Positions 17,931 through 38,152 of a stretch of 53,254 bases of DNA are shown piece after piece (position 1 is the first letter of the stretch; each line of letters starts with the position of its first letter). The DNA comes from Promethearchaeota archaeon (GTDB lineage: Archaea > Asgardarchaeota > Thorarchaeia > Thorarchaeales > Thorarchaeaceae), in the NCBI GenBank assembly GCA_027031765.1, contig JALVPN010000040.1:1-53254 (forward strand), given 5' to 3'. The notes below the pieces were generated by a model. The model searched no databases. It was not told the origin of the DNA and was given only the letters and a program-made list of their open reading frames with translations. The translations under genes and the position numbers were made by a program.

Positions 17931-18128
17931 ATGCCTAAGACTGCAAAGAAGCGGAAGAAGAAGAAAGGTGAGGGGCCGATGCCCTCTGGAGGAGCAGGAC
18001 TGATCCGGTTCTTCGAGGACGAGACCCCAGGCATCAAGGTGGGACCGACAATGGTTGTGGTATTTGCAACGTTGTTGGTCGTTGCCACAGTGGTCGCTCA
18101 CCTTGCCGCACAGCTGGGCTGGTTCTAG
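17931..18128 (+). CDS. secG: Sec61beta (SecG-like) preprotein translocase subunit
   Basis: A 65-residue tail-anchored protein of the Sec61/SecY channel. A lysine-rich cytosolic N-terminus (KTAKKRKKKKGEG) is followed by the conserved PSGGAGLIRFFEDETPGIKV segment and one C-terminal membrane helix (GPTMVVVFATLLVVATVVAHL). Its length and layout match archaeal Sec61beta. It has its own promoter, and the eL44 gene follows after a separate promoter. It fits with the SRP RNA and STT3/OSTC-like genes in this window, all serving protein export. Confidence 0.92.
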   Translation: MPKTAKKRKKKKGEGPMPSGGAGLIRFFEDETPGIKVGPTMVVVFATLLVVATVVAHLAAQLGWF

Positions 18129-20018: not shown

Positions 20019-22772
20019 CTAGTGCAGTTCGACTGGGATCCAGAAGGTTATCCACGAGCTAGCAAGTGTGGGCTCGCCAGAGTTGACATTGTTCCAGAAC
20101 AGGAAACGGACTTCATAGTTCATGCCCGGAATTATGGGGATGTCCTGTGGGTCTTGAGAGTCGAGCCGGATGACAAACTCAATCACGTTCTGGCCTGTTG
20201 CAAACTCCGTTGAGTTGAAACCGGACGAGTCGCTTGCCCATTCGCCATCATGCTTGAGATGACCATCGAAGAACTGCTGTCCGCCATAGTTCACGGCCCG
20301 AATGTCAGCCGGGTACGTCGAACCAATGGGCCGAATCTCAAGCCCGAAGGCATCCTCACCGACTGTGTAGTTAGCCATCGAGATGCCATAGTAAAGGTGC
20401 GTACCATTTGCACGAGTGTAGACCGTCGCCTGATATCCACCACCAAAGATGATCCCGAATTTAGAGAATGACTTCTCAGTCGAGGACAGTGACCCATCCA
20501 TCTTGATGTCATCGAGAGAGCCAATCTCAGGGGTCCAGTCGGCAGTGGTCTTGTTCAGGTACTGCTCGTACATCGTATAGTCAATCTTGTAGATCTTCAC
20601 AGTACCGTACTCAGCACTCGTAAAGACCAAGTCGAATGCGCCATACAGCGAGTCAGGGATGTGGTCGACCCAGTCCTGATAGTTGAAGTACACCTTGTCG
20701 AGCTGGAGACGCTGATCGGAGAGGCCCATCTGCTGTGCCTCCGTTGCATCATGGGGTTCCTTGTACAGCATCAGTTTGTACAGGGTCGATGAGAAGAAGG
20801 CCGGGAGTGTGGCATCGTCCTCGACCTGGGGGGTAGATGGGTCATCACCGAGATACGTCGCATCGTCGATGACATCACTCCCAAGGTGGTCCTCCGCAAT
20901 GCGGACCATCCACGGCCACTTTCCATCGTCACCCCCAATCTGTGGGTGCCTGTGTCCCCAGTAGACCAGGACATGCGTGGTATTCCACTGCTTGAACACC
21001 CGCAGTGACTCCGTAAGGTTGAGGGACATGAGAGCATACCCCATGAGAGCAATCTGTGTGCTGTTGAATGTGGCATTGTCAACGATTGTCTTTCCGCCGC
21101 CAGCCCCATTAATCCAGTAGCCATAGTCCCACCAACTTGCAACCACAGCGGAGTCTGGTAGTACATTCCTGATGAACGTCATAGCGGTCTGCCAGTCCGT
21201 CATGGATGCGCCATCAGATAGATTTCCGGCTGCAAAGTCAGGGTTGCCGACCTGTGAAGTCCCGTAGCTGACACCGAGGCCCACATTGAACAGGAGTATA
21301 AGGGCGATGAAAGCGTATGCTGCAACCGCATGCTCTGATGTCAAGGACTCGCTGATGCGATACCTGCGCCTGTCAAATACAGTCTTCTGAGAAACCACCT
21401 TTGCAAACGGTGAGAGAATGTTGTTTACCGCCACAGCCGCAAGGAGGGAAACACCGGGAGCGAGGATAAGGCTCAACCGTATCATGCTGCCAGCAAAGTA
21501 GACGGATGTCACACCATATAGGAATGCCAGCCAGTCCTCATCGCGGCCACGTTTATACATGAAGTACAGGCCCAGTGGGAACAGGAACATGAGTACGTTC
21601 AGTGTATGATAGAAGCTGCTCCATGGACTTGGTAGGTGCTCGGCCACAGACGCGAAAATCCGTCTGTCAAGACGATAGAACGGGTTTATCACGGTCAAGA
21701 ACTTACCGCCGATAGTCACAATGGGGTTGGAGTTGTAGATGGAAATCTTCAGGTCCGAACTCCCTGCTACAACAAAGTAGGTCGCAACACCCACGACGGA
21801 TGTGAACAGGCCAAGCAGGAGAGGACGCATGTGAGGAGCAAGGGCGGCAGCTGTTGCCTCGCGATAGCCACCGATACGCACCCAGACCTCATACCCCGCA
21901 AGGAGCGCACCGACGCCTATTGGGACCAGGAGTGAGAAGGAGGTGAGGTTGGTGAACCCGTTGCGTGGTACCAAGCAGCCAATGAACATCCCGAGGGAAA
22001 CCGTTGTGAGGTAGGTGTTCAATAGGCTCCTGCTGTAGCGCCCGAACAGGAGCATGAAGAAGGCATACATTGCGAACAGGTCTATTAGAAAGTCCGATGC
22101 ACCCCATGAGCCCATGAGGTATGCCAGTGAGAGGCCGGACAGGACCGCAGACGGTATCGAGTTCCGTTTCAGTGCGCGCGTAAAGAAGTACAGCGTCAGG
22201 ACGATGGCGAACACTCCTATACATTCATTGTCGTAGAACCCGGCGACCGTCCTCTGGATGAAAGCGGGGATGAATGCCATGAAGAGGGCGGTGAGCATGC
22301 CGACAGTGTTGTTTGATAGCTCACGGCCTAGGAAAAAGGAAACTATGACGGTGAGGGCACCCATGAAAGCAGGCATCACGACTGACACGGATACAACATC
22401 GACATGGATCCCAAGACCATTCAGAATGAAGTAGAAGAAGGCGCTCGTGAATGGGACCCCCACGTAGCTTGTCTTGGTCATGTCGCGACCAAAGGGCACC
22501 CATGTCGTGTCATCATACCAGTTGAAAAAGGCCGCATACCCGTGCTCAGTGATGCGCGTGGTGACCTTGAGCTGGAACCACGGGTCGAATGCACGGACAA
22601 TCGGTTGGGCATCGAGGAGCGGCGCTATACGTAGGAGGAGGGCTGCAAAGAAGAGCAGACAGAGGGTCACTGCGATCATAATTGTACCACGTGACACCTT
22701 CGCCTTTGGCTTGTGGAACACCTGCTTCAAGAACCGTCGTGCGGATCGCATGTAACGTCCGAGTCGTGACAT
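20019..22772 (-). CDS. stt3: Oligosaccharyltransferase catalytic subunit STT3/AglB
   Basis: A 917-residue membrane enzyme that transfers a lipid-linked glycan to Asn in secreted proteins. An N-terminal basic region leads into about 13 membrane helices (residues 25-515). The catalytic DxD-type loop is visible as PIVRAFDPWFQLKVT near the start. The WWDYG signature (ASWWDYGYWINGAGG, about residue 544) opens the outer globular domain. The last 250 residues are a beta-rich domain. A TATA-like box lies at 22821-22832. An OSTC-like partner is encoded at 26662. Its length matches archaeal and eukaryotic STT3. Confidence 0.95.
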   Translation of the reverse strand: MSRLGRYMRSARRFLKQVFHKPKAKVSRGTIMIAVTLCLLFFAALLLRIAPLLDAQPIVRAFDPWFQLKVTTRITEHGYAAFFNWYDDTTWVPFGRDMTKTSYVGVPFTSAFFYFILNGLGIHVDVVSVSVVMPAFMGALTVIVSFFLGRELSNNTVGMLTALFMAFIPAFIQRTVAGFYDNECIGVFAIVLTLYFFTRALKRNSIPSAVLSGLSLAYLMGSWGASDFLIDLFAMYAFFMLLFGRYSRSLLNTYLTTVSLGMFIGCLVPRNGFTNLTSFSLLVPIGVGALLAGYEVWVRIGGYREATAAALAPHMRPLLLGLFTSVVGVATYFVVAGSSDLKISIYNSNPIVTIGGKFLTVINPFYRLDRRIFASVAEHLPSPWSSFYHTLNVLMFLFPLGLYFMYKRGRDEDWLAFLYGVTSVYFAGSMIRLSLILAPGVSLLAAVAVNNILSPFAKVVSQKTVFDRRRYRISESLTSEHAVAAYAFIALILLFNVGLGVSYGTSQVGNPDFAAGNLSDGASMTDWQTAMTFIRNVLPDSAVVASWWDYGYWINGAGGGKTIVDNATFNSTQIALMGYALMSLNLTESLRVFKQWNTTHVLVYWGHRHPQIGGDDGKWPWMVRIAEDHLGSDVIDDATYLGDDPSTPQVEDDATLPAFFSSTLYKLMLYKEPHDATEAQQMGLSDQRLQLDKVYFNYQDWVDHIPDSLYGAFDLVFTSAEYGTVKIYKIDYTMYEQYLNKTTADWTPEIGSLDDIKMDGSLSSTEKSFSKFGIIFGGGYQATVYTRANGTHLYYGISMANYTVGEDAFGLEIRPIGSTYPADIRAVNYGGQQFFDGHLKHDGEWASDSSGFNSTEFATGQNVIEFVIRLDSQDPQDIPIIPGMNYEVRFLFWNNVNSGEPTLASSWITFWIPVELH

Positions 22773-22969: not shown

Positions 22970-23368
22970 CTACAGGGAGTCAATGTAGTCGCGGTACTCC
23001 TCGGCACTCATGAGAGAGTCCAACTCAGCATCCAAGTTGGACGGCCTGACCTTGAACATCCAACCATCATCGTACGGCGACTCATTGACAGCCTCCGGAC
23101 TCGACTCGAGATCCGTGTTCACTTCAATGACAGTCCCCGACACAGGTGAGAATACCTCTGAGGAGGCCTTCATCGACTCGATCAGCCCGCACTCGTCACC
23201 AGCGGTGATGTCGGAGCCCACCTCGGGTAGCTCAACATAGGTTATCTCATGAAGCGAGTGTTGGGCATAGTCGGTGATTCCCACAACCACAAGGCCCCCC
23301 TCGATACGGGCCCACTCGTGCTCCTTGCTGTAGAACAGACCGTCGCGGACTTCAGTGTCATCGGTCAT
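22970..23368 (-). CDS. gcvH: Glycine cleavage system H protein
   Basis: A 132-residue lipoyl carrier that shuttles the aminomethyl group between glycine decarboxylase and GcvT. The lipoylated lysine is K67 in GLIESMKASSEVFSPVSG. EHEWARIEGG at the start and NESPYDDGWMFKV at the end are typical. The ATG at 23368 has its own TATA-like box in the 52-nt gap to gcvT. No gcvP or lipoate ligase gene is in the window. Confidence 0.94.
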   Translation of the reverse strand: MTDDTEVRDGLFYSKEHEWARIEGGLVVVGITDYAQHSLHEITYVELPEVGSDITAGDECGLIESMKASSEVFSPVSGTVIEVNTDLESSPEAVNESPYDDGWMFKVRPSNLDAELDSLMSAEEYRDYIDSL

Positions 23369-23403
23369 ATGGGTTCACCATCACAGAGCACAGGTGCTGT
23401 GTT

Positions 23404-23412
23404 GCTTAAATC
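23404..23412 (-). promoter_or_regulatory. TATA-like box for gcvH
   Basis: GATTTAAGC on the minus strand lies between the gcvT stop and the gcvH start, about 36-44 nt before the ATG. Confidence 0.4.
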
Positions 23413-23420
23413 AGTTGCTC

Positions 23421-24569
23421 CTACTCGGAGCTACGGGTCGCGCCATATCGCGATGTGTCGTAAAATGGCCACTCGGTCACCTCTGCCTTCCGGTGCCGCC
23501 CACGGATGTCCACCTCAACTATGTCCCCCACATCAACAGTATTCGGTGGGACGTACCCGAGGGCAATGCCCTTCTTGAGGAGTGGCGACATGCCACCACT
23601 GGTCACCACGCCAATCTTCTCGCCACCAAGTATGATTGGATAGTCCGGACGCGGGACCCCCCGGTCTATCATGACCAGACCAATGCGTGTTTTCTTGACC
23701 CCTTCCTTCTTGTGCCGACGCACAACATCGTATCCAATATAGTGGGGCTCGACCTTGAACTTGACAGCATATGGGATACGGGCCTCGATTGGCGATGTGT
23801 CCTCATCAAGCTCGTGTCCATAGAGTACGAAACCGGCCTCAAGGCGTGTTGAGTCCCTTGCACCAAGGCCGCAGGGCTTGACACCAAACTCGGCGCCCTG
23901 CTCAAGTATGGCCTCCCAGAAACGGACAGCCTTCTTGATCCCGGTCGGGTCGTATGGGGTATCAAGCAGGAGAATCTCGCCACCGTCCTCACCAGTGTAC
24001 CCCGTCCGGCACAGGAAACAGTCCTCACCTGCCAAGGTGAGGGGGTTGCATGTGAAACGGGGCAGTGCGCTGACATCCTCGCCAGCCAGTTTGGAGAGCA
24101 ATGCGAGCGCCTTCGGGCCTTGGACTGCAATCATGACAATCTCGCGCGACTTGTCTTCGACCTTGACGTCGAACCGCGCGGCATGTTCCTGTATGTGCGC
24201 CCAGATCTTGGGCCCATTTGCTGCATTTGTGACCCAGATGAACTCGTCGTCGCCAACGCGGTACAACATCAGGTCGTCCTTTGTACCACCCCTCTCATTG
24301 AGACACGTAGAGTAGTGCCCACCATTTGGCTTCAACTTACGGACATTGTTTGTGGTGAGGGTCTGTAGAAAGTCCACCGCATCGTGGCCCGAAATCCTGA
24401 AGCGGGACATATGAGTGGTATCGAAGACCCCGACAGCCTCCCGGACAGCCATGTGTTCCTCGCGGATGTCCGAATACCTGACGGGCATCTCCCACCCGGC
24501 GAACGGGACTACATCTCCGTGGCTCTTGTGCCACTCAAAGAGGTGGGTGCGGTTCAGGGTGTCAACCAT
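23421..24569 (-). CDS. gcvT: Glycine cleavage system T protein (aminomethyltransferase)
   Basis: A 382-residue enzyme that moves the methylene group from the H protein to a tetrahydropterin and releases ammonia. The start at 24569 follows GGTGAGGTACTCT. Motifs: THLFEWHKSHGDVVPFAGWEMPV near the N-terminus, VGVFDTTHMSRFRISG, the pterin-site region GYTGEDGGEILL and LGARDSTRLEAGFVLYG. The divergent neighbour operon makes pterin (dihydropteroate-synthase-like plus MptE), suggesting that the C1 carrier here is a methanopterin or folate analogue. Confidence 0.95.
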   Translation of the reverse strand: MVDTLNRTHLFEWHKSHGDVVPFAGWEMPVRYSDIREEHMAVREAVGVFDTTHMSRFRISGHDAVDFLQTLTTNNVRKLKPNGGHYSTCLNERGGTKDDLMLYRVGDDEFIWVTNAANGPKIWAHIQEHAARFDVKVEDKSREIVMIAVQGPKALALLSKLAGEDVSALPRFTCNPLTLAGEDCFLCRTGYTGEDGGEILLLDTPYDPTGIKKAVRFWEAILEQGAEFGVKPCGLGARDSTRLEAGFVLYGHELDEDTSPIEARIPYAVKFKVEPHYIGYDVVRRHKKEGVKKTRIGLVMIDRGVPRPDYPIILGGEKIGVVTSGGMSPLLKKGIALGYVPPNTVDVGDIVEVDIRGRHRKAEVTEWPFYDTSRYGATRSSE

Positions 24570-24614
24570 AGAGTACCTCACCTTCAATAGCCGAGCCGCG
24601 TTCGGTATGCACGA

Positions 24615-24623
24615 GGTTTTATT
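24615..24623. promoter_or_regulatory. Shared AT-rich promoter between gcvT and the pterin operon
   Basis: GGTTTTATT on the plus strand (AATAAAACC on the minus) lies 46 nt before gcvT and 37 nt before the ATG at 24660. It may act in both directions. Confidence 0.4.
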
Positions 24624-24659
24624 TTCTTCCATATGCCGGCCGGAGTAGAGGCGGAATAC

Positions 24660-25883
24660 ATGCAGCACAATGTATACATCGACGGGCTTGCAGTAGGGCC
24701 AGACCAGCCGGTCAGGGTAATGGGCGTTATCAACCTGTCACCGGAGTCGTTCTATCAGGAGTCAGTCGTGACAGAAGAGGACAGGCTGAGGGATGTTGTA
24801 AGGGAGATGGAACAGGCAGGGGCATCAGTAATAGACGTTGGGGCCGCATCATCCGCACCAAGTAGGGTCTACGGGACAGTCCATGTTTCGGTGGACGAGG
24901 AGCTCGAACGTGTGAAGACCTATCTCCCAACAATAGTTGAGGCAGCCTCGGTACCCGTATCAATAGACACGGTCCACTTCACTGTTGCAGAGGTGGCCCT
25001 CGACATCGGGGCGTCTCTTGTGAACGACATATCTGGGCTCAATCGGGAGAGGAAGATGGCAGGGTTGGTGGCGGCCCGTGGGGTACCGGTGGTGTTGATG
25101 GCGGACTGTGATGGCCCATGCATGAGTATTGACGAGGCCATAAGGGCGTTGAAGGGGTCAATACGGACTGCACTGGGGGCGGGCATTGCCAGGGAGAGCC
25201 TGATCACAGACCCCGGTATCGGGTTTGGAAAACCATGCGAGGCCGACCTGGCACTTATCAGAGGACTCCACAGGTTCACTCTGCTGGGACACCCGGTCCT
25301 CGTGGGTATTTCACGGAAGGCCTTTCTTGGGGAGTTACTAGGGGCACCAAGGCCTGAAGACCGACTGACAGGCACGATTGCGGCAACTGCCATTGCAGTT
25401 GCAAGAGGTGCAGACATGGTCAGGGCCCACGATGTCCAGGAGGCAGCAATTGCTTCGAGAGTGGGAAGGGCACTACGGGACGCCCTCCCATGTAGTAGGG
25501 GTCATGAGGTCGAACTGATAGGCTCATGTAGCCAGGAGGATGCGGCAATAGTACTCGAACACATCGGTGTGGACGCCGAGGCCATAGGACGACTTGCCAA
25601 GAAGGCTACGGGCCTGAACATACTGCTCAGGGGGCTCAGTGCTCCAGCAGCGCTGGTGCTGAAACAGGAGATGTTGGCACTGGGAGGCGATGCAGCCTAC
25701 CACAGGGACGTCATCGACTTCCAGACCAAGACGACCGATGTGCTGCTCATGGGGAACGTCCAGCAGGTCGAGAGGCTCTGTAGAGTGTTGCGACGGGCCA
25801 GTTACTTCGGCCTGCAAGAGGTGGGTGAGTCTGTGTCAAGCGTGCTGTCATGCTGGAGAGAATATCATAGCAAGAAGGAATAG
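24660..25883 (+). CDS. Dihydropteroate-synthase-like protein (tetrahydromethanopterin-pathway type)
   Basis: A 407-residue two-domain protein. Residues 1-270 are a dihydropteroate synthase TIM barrel: VRVMGVINLSPESFY, ASVIDVGAASSAPS, VPVSIDT, INDISG-like VNDISGLN, DPGIGFGKP and LVGISRKAFLG. Residues 280-407 are an extra domain seen in archaeal DHPS-like proteins. The ATG at 24660 is favoured, because GAGGCGG precedes it and the upstream ATG at 24633 lies too near the TATA box. Directly followed by mptE. It probably joins the pterin to an arylamine; the exact substrate is not shown by sequence. Confidence 0.85.
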   Translation: MQHNVYIDGLAVGPDQPVRVMGVINLSPESFYQESVVTEEDRLRDVVREMEQAGASVIDVGAASSAPSRVYGTVHVSVDEELERVKTYLPTIVEAASVPVSIDTVHFTVAEVALDIGASLVNDISGLNRERKMAGLVAARGVPVVLMADCDGPCMSIDEAIRALKGSIRTALGAGIARESLITDPGIGFGKPCEADLALIRGLHRFTLLGHPVLVGISRKAFLGELLGAPRPEDRLTGTIAATAIAVARGADMVRAHDVQEAAIASRVGRALRDALPCSRGHEVELIGSCSQEDAAIVLEHIGVDAEAIGRLAKKATGLNILLRGLSAPAALVLKQEMLALGGDAAYHRDVIDFQTKTTDVLLMGNVQQVERLCRVLRRASYFGLQEVGESVSSVLSCWREYHSKKE

Positions 25884-25885
25884 AG

Positions 25886-26605
25886 ATGGAATGGAGCGAG
25901 TGGAAGCCGACGTATGACTGGATTTGCGGGCTACTCCACATAGACCCTGCTGACGACGCCCGAACCACAGCCCTGCTGACAGAACTCCTCCGGGACGTTA
26001 GGCCGGAGCCCCTGCTGCACCAGCTCCAAGGCCTGATAACCGGGAGGACTGTTGTGGTGTGTGGGGCAGGGCCGTCACTGGAAAGACACCTCAACACTGT
26101 AGCTGACTGGACTGCACACGATGACATCACATTCATTGCTGCGGACGGGGCGACCTCGGCATTCGAAGAGATGGGGCTGCACTGCGATATAGTCGTCACT
26201 GATCTGGACGGCAACGTCGATGACATTGCGGCAGCGAAGAGTAAGGGGGCTGTAGTGGTGGTGCATGCACATGGGGACAACATGCCGACAGTCCAAAGAG
26301 AGCTGCCCCGGCTTGGCCATGTCCTAGGGAGCACACAGACCAAGCCAACAGGACGGGCTCATCTTTGGGGTGGCTTCACAGACGGGGACCGCGCATGCTA
26401 CATGGCCGCACACTACAGTCCGCGCCAGATGGTACTTGCAGGGATGGACTTTGGCAGTCTAGTCGGCCGCTGGTCGAAACCTGGATACAGAGAACACTTC
26501 GTTGCAGGAGCAAGAAAACGCATCAAACTCGAAATAGCACGCAGGCTCATCGAGGAGCTGATACACAGGACGGCACCTGGAATTGACTACTCTACTCTGC
26601 AGTGA
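25886..26605 (+). CDS. mptE: 6-hydroxymethyl-7,8-dihydropterin pyrophosphokinase MptE (DUF115)
   Basis: A 239-residue archaeal enzyme that activates hydroxymethyl-dihydropterin with ATP, replacing bacterial FolK. The DUF115/COG1634 core is evident: VVVCGAGPSLERHL, FIAADGATSAFEEMGLHCDIVVTDLDG (metal site), VVVHAHGDN and FGGFTDGDRA-like WGGFTDGDRAC. The start is 2 nt after the stop of the DHPS-like gene, indicating an operon. Together these two genes cover adjacent steps of methanopterin or folate-like cofactor synthesis. Confidence 0.92.
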   Translation: MEWSEWKPTYDWICGLLHIDPADDARTTALLTELLRDVRPEPLLHQLQGLITGRTVVVCGAGPSLERHLNTVADWTAHDDITFIAADGATSAFEEMGLHCDIVVTDLDGNVDDIAAAKSKGAVVVVHAHGDNMPTVQRELPRLGHVLGSTQTKPTGRAHLWGGFTDGDRACYMAAHYSPRQMVLAGMDFGSLVGRWSKPGYREHFVAGARKRIKLEIARRLIEELIHRTAPGIDYSTLQ

Positions 26606-26661: not shown

Positions 26662-27090
26662 CTATGATGAGATGGCCCCCATCTTGTACGCGAACAGGTA
26701 GCTGAATATGAGCAGGGCAACACCGGCAAGCAGCATCCCGAGGAACATGAGACGCATCGCATAGTTTGGCTGGAACACGTACTTGGAACTGTAGTAGAGG
26801 AGTCCAAAGCCGAGTGTACCCATGAGGACTACAACTGAAGCAACAATGCCCTCCATGCCGAGCTGCATGTCAATGCGTGGCGCAATCAGGATGGGGGCAC
26901 CCTGTGACCCGCCCGCGATGGCAGGGGGTGTCCTGACAAGTGTGTATATGTTGCCACCAAGGATGAACAGTACAGCCAGAAATATTGCCCCAAAAACGAC
27001 TATGTCCGGTGGACGCGCAGGCATACCGAACCTTGGTCTCTTCAGTCTGAGCTGGGGCTTGACAATAATACTCGGCCACCAAGGTTTCAC
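26662..27090 (-). CDS. OSTC / OST3-OST6-like oligosaccharyltransferase accessory subunit
   Basis: A 142-residue protein with three membrane helices (about residues 28-50, 79-101, 110-135). By eye it lines up along its length with eukaryotic OSTC: a PxLxLKxP N-terminus (PQLRLKRPRFGMP), then GGNIYTLVRTPP before the first lumenal loop, MEGIVASVVVLMGTLGFGLL in helix 2, and a third helix ending in a basic tail (YKMGAISS). Eukaryotic OSTC and the membrane parts of OST3/OST6 bind STT3 in the glycosyltransferase complex. STT3 is encoded 4 kb away. The mRNA is near-leaderless from its own TATA box. Homology looks strong but needs profile confirmation. Confidence 0.75.
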   Translation of the reverse strand: MKPWWPSIIVKPQLRLKRPRFGMPARPPDIVVFGAIFLAVLFILGGNIYTLVRTPPAIAGGSQGAPILIAPRIDMQLGMEGIVASVVVLMGTLGFGLLYYSSKYVFQPNYAMRLMFLGMLLAGVALLIFSYLFAYKMGAISS

Positions 27091-27314: not shown

Positions 27315-29426
27315 GTGTCAACAGTACTTGTAATCTGTGAGAAGCCCAGTGCCGCAAAGCGCATAGCGCACGCGCTTGACGATAATGGGGCACCCACCGA
27401 GGTGAAGAGGCGGGGCGCCTCGTACTTTCAGTGCAGGAACGGAGAGGACACCTTGCTTGTGGCATACGCAAAGGGGCACCTCTACGAACTCCGACAGGTA
27501 GAGAAGGGGTGGACATATCCACGTCTTGACGTGGAGTGGGCACCAAAGTACGAGGTCGTAAAGAAGGCAACAGATACGAAGGCCATCATTGCGCTAATCC
27601 GCAGCCTTGCGAAGAGAGCGGATCAGTTCATAGTGGCGACTGACTATGACATAGAGGGAAGCCTGATTGGATACCTGGTCGTAAAGTACGCATGTGGTGC
27701 TGACCCATCAATAGCACAACGGATGATATTCTCAGCCCTCACGGACAAGGAGCTACGAGCAGCATATGCTAGCCGAGCACAGGAACTCGACTTCCAGCTG
27801 GTCGAAGCAGGACATCTCCGCCATGAGATTGACTGGCTATACGGTATCAACCTCACACGGGCCCTCACACTGGCCATAAAGCGGACGGCTGGGTGGTTCA
27901 AGATAGTCTCGACAGGGCGCGTGCAGGGCCCAACACTTGCAATGGTTGCTGCACGCGACCAAGAGGTCAACCAGTTCGTCCCGCACCCGTTCTGGAGCAT
28001 AGATGCGCAGGGTGAGTGGGACGGACGTGAGTTGCACCTCAAGTATTCAAAGGACAGGATAGACACTGTACACGCAGCAGAGGAGGTTGTGCGTGCAACA
28101 CATGGCCAAGTCGGACATGTCGCATCTGTCCGGACACGGGTGATGACCCAGAAGCCGCCGGTGCCGTTCAACCTCGGTGGACTACAGACCGAGGCATACC
28201 GCCACTTTGGGTTCAAACCGAGCCGTACCCTTGCGCTCGCACAGCGTCTGTATCTCGACGCCTTGATCTCATACCCAAGGACGAACAACCAGCAGATCCC
28301 AGAGTCAATCGATGTCAGGTCAGTCCTCCATGGGCTCAGCAGTATGAGGGCATACAAGGGACATGCAAGTGCACTCCTCAGCCGCAGAGTCCTGCAGCCC
28401 ACCCAAGGCAAGAAGACCGACCCGGCGCACCCAGCCATCCACCCCACAGGAGAGACGCCTTCAAGAAGACTGACACCGAGCGAAAAGAGACTCTTCGACC
28501 TGATAGTGAAGCGGTTCTTCGCCCTGTTCGGGCCACCCGCGAAGAAGAAGAGTGTGCGTGCCGACATTGTGTGCAACGACCACACGTTCTACTTGCGTGG
28601 AAGAGAGGTGCTCGAACCCGGGTGGATTGAGTTCTACAGGCCTTATGTGACCAGCGAGGAGGTGGAAGTCCCCGGGCTGACCGAAGGGGACGAGGTCAGG
28701 CTCACCCGTGTCAGGGCCGTTGAGAAGTACACGTCCCCACCGCTCCGTTTCAACCCGGCGAGTCTGTTGAAGAGTCTTGAGAAGGAGAACCTTGGTACAA
28801 AGGCTACTAGGGCGGGGATTGTCGATTCACTGAGGTCACGTGGGTATACGCTGAATGACCGTTTTGAGCTGTCAACTCTAGGATATGCAGTCTTCGAGAC
28901 GCTACAGCGCCATGTGCCAAGACTGCTCTCTGTTGAGTTTACAAGGAGCCTAGAGGAGGAGATGAATATGATCCAGGAGGGGAAACGGACGAGAGAGGAA
29001 GTACTTGTGCGGGCCAAGGAGGACCTGCGTGAGATACTCTCCAAGTTCAAGTCGCTTGAGAGTGAGATAGGCAACGAACTGGTCGAGGGACTACAGAGGT
29101 TCTGGAGAGAGAAGGAGGAGGTAGGCCCCTGCCCTAAGTGTGATGATGGTACGTTGATGATAGTGCGGTCACCCAAGTCCGGGAAGCGGTTCATAGGCTG
29201 CAGCAACTACAGGACTGGAAAGTGCGACAAGACGTTCCCACTCCCACAGAAGGGGAACATAGTGGTGCTCGACAAGGAGTGCCCATATTGTGGACACAGG
29301 ATGCTGAGAATAACGTCAAAGAGACGCACTTGGGAGACCTGCATCAACTGGGCCGAGTGCCCAGGGAGAGCTGAGGAACTCAGGGCACTTGAAGAACGGC
29401 GGGCGACAAGGGGGGCAAAGGGTTGA
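27315..29426 (+). CDS. topA: DNA topoisomerase I (type IA)
   Basis: A 703-residue enzyme that relaxes negative supercoils by cutting one DNA strand. The TOPRIM domain has E9 (CEKPSAAKRI) and D110-x-D112-x-E114 (ATDYDIEG). The catalytic tyrosine is Y319 in ALISYPRTNNQ. HPAIHPTG is the conserved domain III/I motif. Two C-terminal zinc fingers follow (CPKCDDGTLM...CSNYRTGKC and CPYCGHRM...CINWAECPG). The GTG start at 27315 has GAGGGAG upstream. The small zinc protein gene is coupled by a TTGA overlap. Confidence 0.95.
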   Translation: MSTVLVICEKPSAAKRIAHALDDNGAPTEVKRRGASYFQCRNGEDTLLVAYAKGHLYELRQVEKGWTYPRLDVEWAPKYEVVKKATDTKAIIALIRSLAKRADQFIVATDYDIEGSLIGYLVVKYACGADPSIAQRMIFSALTDKELRAAYASRAQELDFQLVEAGHLRHEIDWLYGINLTRALTLAIKRTAGWFKIVSTGRVQGPTLAMVAARDQEVNQFVPHPFWSIDAQGEWDGRELHLKYSKDRIDTVHAAEEVVRATHGQVGHVASVRTRVMTQKPPVPFNLGGLQTEAYRHFGFKPSRTLALAQRLYLDALISYPRTNNQQIPESIDVRSVLHGLSSMRAYKGHASALLSRRVLQPTQGKKTDPAHPAIHPTGETPSRRLTPSEKRLFDLIVKRFFALFGPPAKKKSVRADIVCNDHTFYLRGREVLEPGWIEFYRPYVTSEEVEVPGLTEGDEVRLTRVRAVEKYTSPPLRFNPASLLKSLEKENLGTKATRAGIVDSLRSRGYTLNDRFELSTLGYAVFETLQRHVPRLLSVEFTRSLEEEMNMIQEGKRTREEVLVRAKEDLREILSKFKSLESEIGNELVEGLQRFWREKEEVGPCPKCDDGTLMIVRSPKSGKRFIGCSNYRTGKCDKTFPLPQKGNIVVLDKECPYCGHRMLRITSKRRTWETCINWAECPGRAEELRALEERRATRGAKG

Positions 29427-37789: not shown

Positions 37790-38152
37790 GGTACTGAGCA
37801 ACAGCAGCCTAGGGTCACATACGTGGATGGAGTGCAACGGCCCCGCCGCTTCGAACGTCCCTTCCCACTGTGCGGTCCACCGCCTTTCTCAAGGCAGCGC
37901 CCTCCGGGGCTCCACCGCCCCGCCTTAGGGCTGCTCCCGCCAGGGCCTGGCCCGGTTCGGCGGCCTAGTCCACTCACACCAGTCCTTCGACTGGTGCTGT
38001 GACTGCGGCAGACTCCGGAGACTGCCTCTCACAGTCCAGCGGCAGGGCACATGTGAGTCGGGGTTCGTCCTCAGCTTTGGTTACTGGTCCCGGCTATTGC
38101 CATACCGGTTACAGGTCGCGGCAAACGACCCGACCCTACCCGTTGCAAGACC
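37790..38152 (-). ncRNA. Signal recognition particle 7S RNA, enlarged
   Basis: Minus-strand RNA of about 363 nt; ends are estimated from pairing GGT/ACC and GCAAC/GTTGC. It has the helix 3-4 CTGTAACC and GCTGAGG elements and a helix 6-like CACCAGTC-GAAG-GACTGGTG hairpin. The helix 8 signature is GGGCCAGGCCC-TGGC-GGGAGCAGCCC, with the symmetric CAGG/AGCA loop that binds SRP54. The tetraloop is TGGC, not the usual GGAA type. Extra hairpins (CTGTGA/TCACAG with GGCAG/CTGCC; GCCTT-GAGA-AAGGC) make it about 60 nt longer than typical. A TATA-like box is at 38168-38177. Confidence 0.85.

Follow-up and report, generated by a model that had tools for sequence, protein, structure and literature searches.

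An OSTC-type, thioredoxin-free membrane protein of Asgard archaea, encoded near STT3 in a Thorarchaeal locus

Introduction

What is the small membrane protein encoded a few kilobases from the gene of the catalytic oligosaccharyltransferase (OST) subunit STT3 in a Thorarchaeal genome, and how does it relate to the accessory OST subunits of eukaryotes? Two kinds of relative come into question. OSTC (DC2; TC 1.A.76.2; PDB 6s7o, 8b6l and 9n9j) is the subunit of the OST-A complex of animals through which the glycosylation machinery docks to the protein-export channel, and the N-terminus of human OSTC binds KCP2. Ost3/Ost6 of yeast and MAGT1/TUSC3 of animals (PF04756, TC 1.A.76.1) carry in addition a thioredoxin domain, on the luminal side, and a further helix. 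In humans, STT3A is bound by OSTC, whose luminal hairpin is in contact with both Sec61gamma and the Sec61 plug (PMC9892003, PMC12804085, PMC7226087). An earlier note on this DNA, made by reading the letters, had proposed that the protein resembles OSTC along its full length and would represent an accessory OST subunit before eukaryotes.

Results

An OSTC-type gene on the minus strand

The window, by which we mean the whole stretch of 53,254 nucleotides that was analysed, comes from an assembly that is 95% complete and contains the following features around the gene in question:

17931–18128, plus strand: Sec61 beta subunit, 65 aa (PF03911, E 4.4e-13)
20019–22772, minus strand: STT3/AglB catalytic subunit, 917 aa (PF02516, E 3.3e-53; WWDYGYW motif read directly)
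22970–24668, minus strand: gcvH and gcvT (glycine cleavage), between STT3 and the OSTC-type gene (Pfam, synteny)
24633–26605, plus strand: pterin-binding (DHPS-like) protein and MptE-like 6-hydroxymethylpterin diphosphokinase, between gcvT and the OSTC-type gene (Pfam)
26662–27090, minus strand: putative OSTC-type OST subunit, 142 aa, three membrane helices (PF04756, phmmer, AlphaFold model, Foldseek)
27315–29426, plus strand: DNA topoisomerase I, divergent neighbour of the OSTC-type gene, conserved in Thorarchaeota (Pfam, synteny)
37834–38146, minus strand: archaeal SRP RNA (Rfam RF01857, 111.7 bits)

The interval 26662–27090 on the minus strand is a genuine gene, and its product is a small membrane protein with three helices that is related to OSTC. 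The reading frame runs from a GTG at 27090 to a stop at 26662 (142 codons), in agreement with the 142-residue protein of the earlier note, which had left the strand unstated; on the plus strand the same frame is interrupted by stops. The GTG start is supported by many Thorarchaeal relatives that start there too (M-K-x-W-W-P). The protein is 61–74% identical across Thorarchaeota, and comparison of the gene with relatives that are 71–75% identical gives a dN of ∼0.2 against a dS that is 2.3 or saturated, indicating strong purifying selection. STT3, Sec61 beta and the SRP RNA are all present in the window, as the earlier note had said, and the motifs that it quoted can be read in the protein: PxLxLKxP as PQLRLKRP, GGxIYxxxxxPP as GGNIYTLVRTPP, and MEGxxxSxxxxMGxLGF as MEGIVASVVVLMGTLGF.

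Family membership by sequence

A profile match to OSTC, OST3 or OST6 had been named in advance as the decisive check, and it was passed: PF04756 (OST3_OST6) is matched with an E value of 3.4e-9 and 37 bits against a cut-off of 27, over the membrane half of the profile only (positions 184–283 of 294). We aligned 29 Asgard relatives of the protein (alignment A1), all of which match PF04756 at E ≤ 0.01. In a phmmer search of all PDB sequences, OSTC was the sole match to the window's protein (E 7.7e-8). The profile made from A1 matches human OSTC with an E value of 5.7e-20, against 2.8e-5 for MAGT1 and 0.016 for yeast Ost3; hhalign gives 98.4% for OSTC, 58% for MAGT1 and 50% for Ost3. The full-length likeness to eukaryotic OSTC claimed by the earlier note proved, for human OSTC, to be nearly end to end, and 109 of 110 distinct Asgard proteins score best with OSTC and not with MAGT1 or Ost3, a closeness that may be due in part to faster change in Ost3 and MAGT1.

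Like OSTC (149 aa), the 142-residue protein has three helices and no thioredoxin domain, and the two share the N-terminal PxLxLKxP before helix 1, GGxIY, PP, MEG and a C-terminal lysine. They differ in that identity is only ∼24–29%, the Asgard loop between helices 1 and 2 is about five residues shorter, and the Asgard protein would sit in the cell membrane of an archaeon and OSTC in that of the ER. With Ost3/Ost6 and MAGT1/TUSC3 the Asgard proteins share a homologous membrane domain; unlike them, they lack the extra helix.

Fold, topology and conserved residues

The AlphaFold model (pLDDT 81) contains helices at residues 29–51, 73–103 and 108–136, and three hydrophobic segments are predicted, which accords with the three membrane helices that had been claimed. 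In a Foldseek search of the PDB the first four places went to human OSTC chains, with Ost6, Ost3 and MAGT1 in sixth to eighth place; because Foldseek also takes residues into account, this result overlaps in part with the sequence match. The OSTC matches have a TM score of about 0.53 with an rmsd of 5.6–10.7, so that the packing of the helices is only roughly predicted. From the hydrophobicity, the basic stretch at the N-terminus (PQLRLKRPRF) and what is known of OSTC topology, we suggest that the N-terminus lies inside, that helix 1 leads to an outside loop (residues 52–72, probably extracellular), helix 2 to a short loop inside, and helix 3 to a C-terminus outside. G46, E80 and K136 show no variation among the Asgard OSTC-type proteins. 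Of these, E80 and K136, which are also common to OSTC, MAGT1 and Ost3, sit where helices 2 and 3 end on the outer side, and they may pair.

Distribution among archaea

The family profile matches 207 of 228 genomes of the Asgard phylum at E ≤ 0.01; in a scan of named genomes with a separate alignment of Thorarchaeota (A2), the closest relatives lay in 40 loci, nearly all of them from Candidatus Thorarchaeota. The gene, usually in single copy, was found in 28 of 29 Asgard families, the exception (f28) being represented by one genome that is 80% complete. Among ∼165 genomes of other archaeal groups, the profile search yielded no convincing homologue; the best matches there were partial, lay in APC-type transporters of ∼440 aa, and were rejected as homologues. 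This absence conflicts with the statement that OST3/6 occurs in TACK archaea (PMC11417166), and sampling or sensitivity may be the cause.

In addition to the gene of the conserved block, some Thorarchaeota assemblies contain a divergent second OSTC-type gene that lies outside it (L088, isolate YT5_051; and G213, contig C84, 12191–12610). The second gene of L088 is 59% identical and has none of the window's neighbours within 10 kb; these copies represent either a paralogue or a binning mixture. The sequence WJMJ01000059.1 (L090), titled Candidatus Lokiarchaeota, has an OSTC-type gene and a 20-kb gene order like those of Thorarchaeota and close to L087, and is probably a mislabelled genome.

Absence of a thioredoxin domain

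No recognisable thioredoxin domain was detected in the 110 distinct Asgard OSTC-type proteins, and no frame among these sequences carries both halves of PF04756, as a fusion of thioredoxin and membrane domains would. A CxxC motif is likewise absent from the 110 sequences, save for one spurious upstream extension. A 276-aa frame in locus L035 proved to be an upstream extension with no domain that could be recognised. Matches to PF04756 at profile positions 5–105 belong to separate small proteins, which we take to be thioredoxins.

Relation to OSTC and to Ost3/Ost6

We calculated a tree from 58 Asgard rows and one row each of OSTC, MAGT1 and Ost3. In it, a split (support 99/97) places OSTC on the side of the Asgard rows, apart from MAGT1 plus Ost3; the branches are long, that of OSTC very long, and an AU test on these single representatives does not reject holding the three eukaryotic rows as one clade (p = 0.465). 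The safe statement is that the Asgard protein is a co-orthologue, derived either from a thioredoxin-free ancestor that OSTC shares with the membrane domain of Ost3/Ost6 or from the OSTC side of an older split. By default we prefer a co-orthologue predating the split between OSTC and Ost3 over a strict OSTC orthologue. The protein is best read as a form without thioredoxin that dates from about the time of the split of OSTC from Ost3/Ost6 or earlier, and the thioredoxin domain as an addition on the Ost3/Ost6 side.

Linkage to STT3

The STT3 at 20019–22772 is the sole STT3 found in the window's genome and has a double sequon (NATFNST) just after WWDYGYW, a feature described for eukaryotic, Asgard and TACK STT3 enzymes (PMC8993221). 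Most Thorarchaeota loci keep the order topA, OSTC-type gene, MptE-like, DHPS-like, gcvT, gcvH, STT3, and the same conserved block continues past STT3 with eIF2alpha, ribosomal protein L44e and Sec61 beta; gcvH and gcvT are conserved neighbours without a known link to glycosylation. The distance from the OSTC-type gene to STT3 is ∼4 kb in Thorarchaeota, and STT3 lies nearby in 21 of the 23 named loci longer than 19 kb. The nearness recurs in families f26 (∼4 kb) and f29 (0.3 kb, divergent). Beside the OSTC-type gene of six further Asgard families that we inspected, no STT3 was found. An operon was rejected, as four genes lie between the two and two of them are on the opposite strand. The linkage is suggestive, but inherited gene order could be its cause.

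In three further Asgard families (L045, L047 and L051), less than 2 kb separates the gene for RadB from the OSTC-type gene, in two of them with CDP-archaeol synthase alongside; in the window, both genes are 6–7 kb from the OSTC-type gene.

Other OST components

Elsewhere in the window's genome there are Ost1-, Ost5- and TRAP-beta-like genes, with the Ost1 and Ost5 matches near the cut-offs; the Ost5-like protein (83 aa; L129, contig C196, 1495–1746, minus strand) is at the edge of the PF05251 cut-off. By far the strongest match to ribophorin I (Ost1) among 59 genomes (141 bits, positions 15–414 of 437, uninterrupted frame) is in the single genome of family f28 (L092, 1294–2637; G180, contig C290), the same genome in which the OSTC-type gene was not found. 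In a search of 393 archaeal genomes, KCP2 (PF09775) gave no match over the cut-off, a result that could miss a short divergent protein.

Discussion

A probable subunit of an STT3 complex

We consider it quite probable that the OSTC-type protein is a structural subunit of an STT3-containing, OST-like complex. This reading draws directly on homology, fold, the lack of a thioredoxin domain, the spread among Asgard archaea, purifying selection and the linkage to STT3 in Thorarchaeota, from which we infer membership in the complex. The protein would be small and structural, lacking an enzyme domain, and would represent in Asgard archaea the family of OSTC and the Ost3 membrane domain, packed against STT3 in the cell membrane. 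If human OST-A is a guide, the loop that the protein exposes outside the cell between helices 1 and 2 may contact the SecY/Sec61 channel, and an STT3 docked in this way could glycosylate chains while they emerge from the channel. The strongest form of this model, a strict Asgard orthologue of OSTC that physically couples STT3 to SecY/Sec61, with translocon-docked glycosylation being pre-eukaryotic and Ost3/Ost6 arising later, appears rather unlikely to us.

A more modest role for the subunit has a somewhat less than even chance of being the whole story. The protein would then do no more than stabilise STT3, or else the site of the lipid-linked donor, which is the structural part played by Ost3/Ost6 in free OST, and coupling to Sec61 would have been gained in eukaryotes together with KCP2. 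This is consistent with the failure to find KCP2 in the 393 archaeal genomes and with yeast OST, which works with Ost3/Ost6 and without OSTC and KCP2 (PMC7226087). Against it, the loop by which human OSTC contacts the Sec61 plug (PMC9892003) is kept in the Asgard protein, shorter but with its PP motif aligned; because a comparable loop exists in MAGT1, however, its retention does not discriminate between the two models and does not prove docking to Sec61. The Asgard protein possesses what a role on the side of STT3 requires; a role as a subunit is likely, and a link to the translocon is a possibility that OSTC suggests.

Two further readings would remove the protein from glycosylation altogether. 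Membership of the MagT1 family (TC 1.A.76) could make it a magnesium channel or transporter, as the TCDB class implies and as a 2021 survey of Asgard archaea, which lists the family as possibly transporting magnesium, would allow (PMC7997004). The protein has only three helices, however, the structure of human MAGT1 was reported without a pore or substrate site (PMC9333335), and transport by the MagT1 family is contested, all of which make this reading highly improbable. Alternatively, it could be an unrelated three-helix membrane protein whose likeness to OSTC is due to hydrophobic convergence, a view to which some colour is lent by weak profile matches, one (0.023) to an amino-acid transporter of the APC type and others to comparable transporters of 440 aa from other archaea. 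Those matches span only part of the profile, whereas that of OSTC runs from nearly one end to the other. Moreover, human OSTC scores 73.8 bits with the family profile, compared with 21.3 bits for the best of 2000 OSTC sequences shuffled locally by blocks of ten so that the hydrophobic pattern is preserved; judged in this way, the MAGT1 match (26.8 bits) hardly rises above noise. With OSTC also the top fold match, convergence is refuted on sequence and fold and retains next to no probability.

Significance of the Asgard form

Asgard homologues have been published under the names "Ost3 (Tusc3)" and "OST3/6" (PMC10307638, PMC11417166, PMC8813620), and the 2021 survey assigned MagT1-family members from all Asgard proteomes to TC subfamily 1.A.76.2 (PMC7997004), under which human OSTC is listed, MAGT1/TUSC3 being listed under 1.A.76.1 (PMC9333335). 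Thus, the OSTC type has in effect already been assigned to Asgard archaea, and the published Ost3/Tusc3 proteins are almost certainly the same family, since the sampled Asgard genomes held only the thioredoxin-free form. The idea of an accessory OST subunit before eukaryotes is therefore right for the family, although not new, having been published before (PMC10307638, PMC11417166, PMC7997004). Among the open-licence full texts searched, we found none that describes the Asgard proteins in words as OSTC-type and thioredoxin-free. Our result sharpens the reading of an ancestral part that was already known; it does not add a new system, and its novelty is modest.

This reading fixes the form that the subunit takes in the lineage closest to eukaryotes, namely a bare three-helix protein, pan-Asgard and without an oxidoreductase domain; annotation labels such as "OST3/6" or "magnesium transporter" imply functions that the sequence does not support. 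It also makes testable the question of whether the docking of OST to the export channel arose in archaea or only with the ER.
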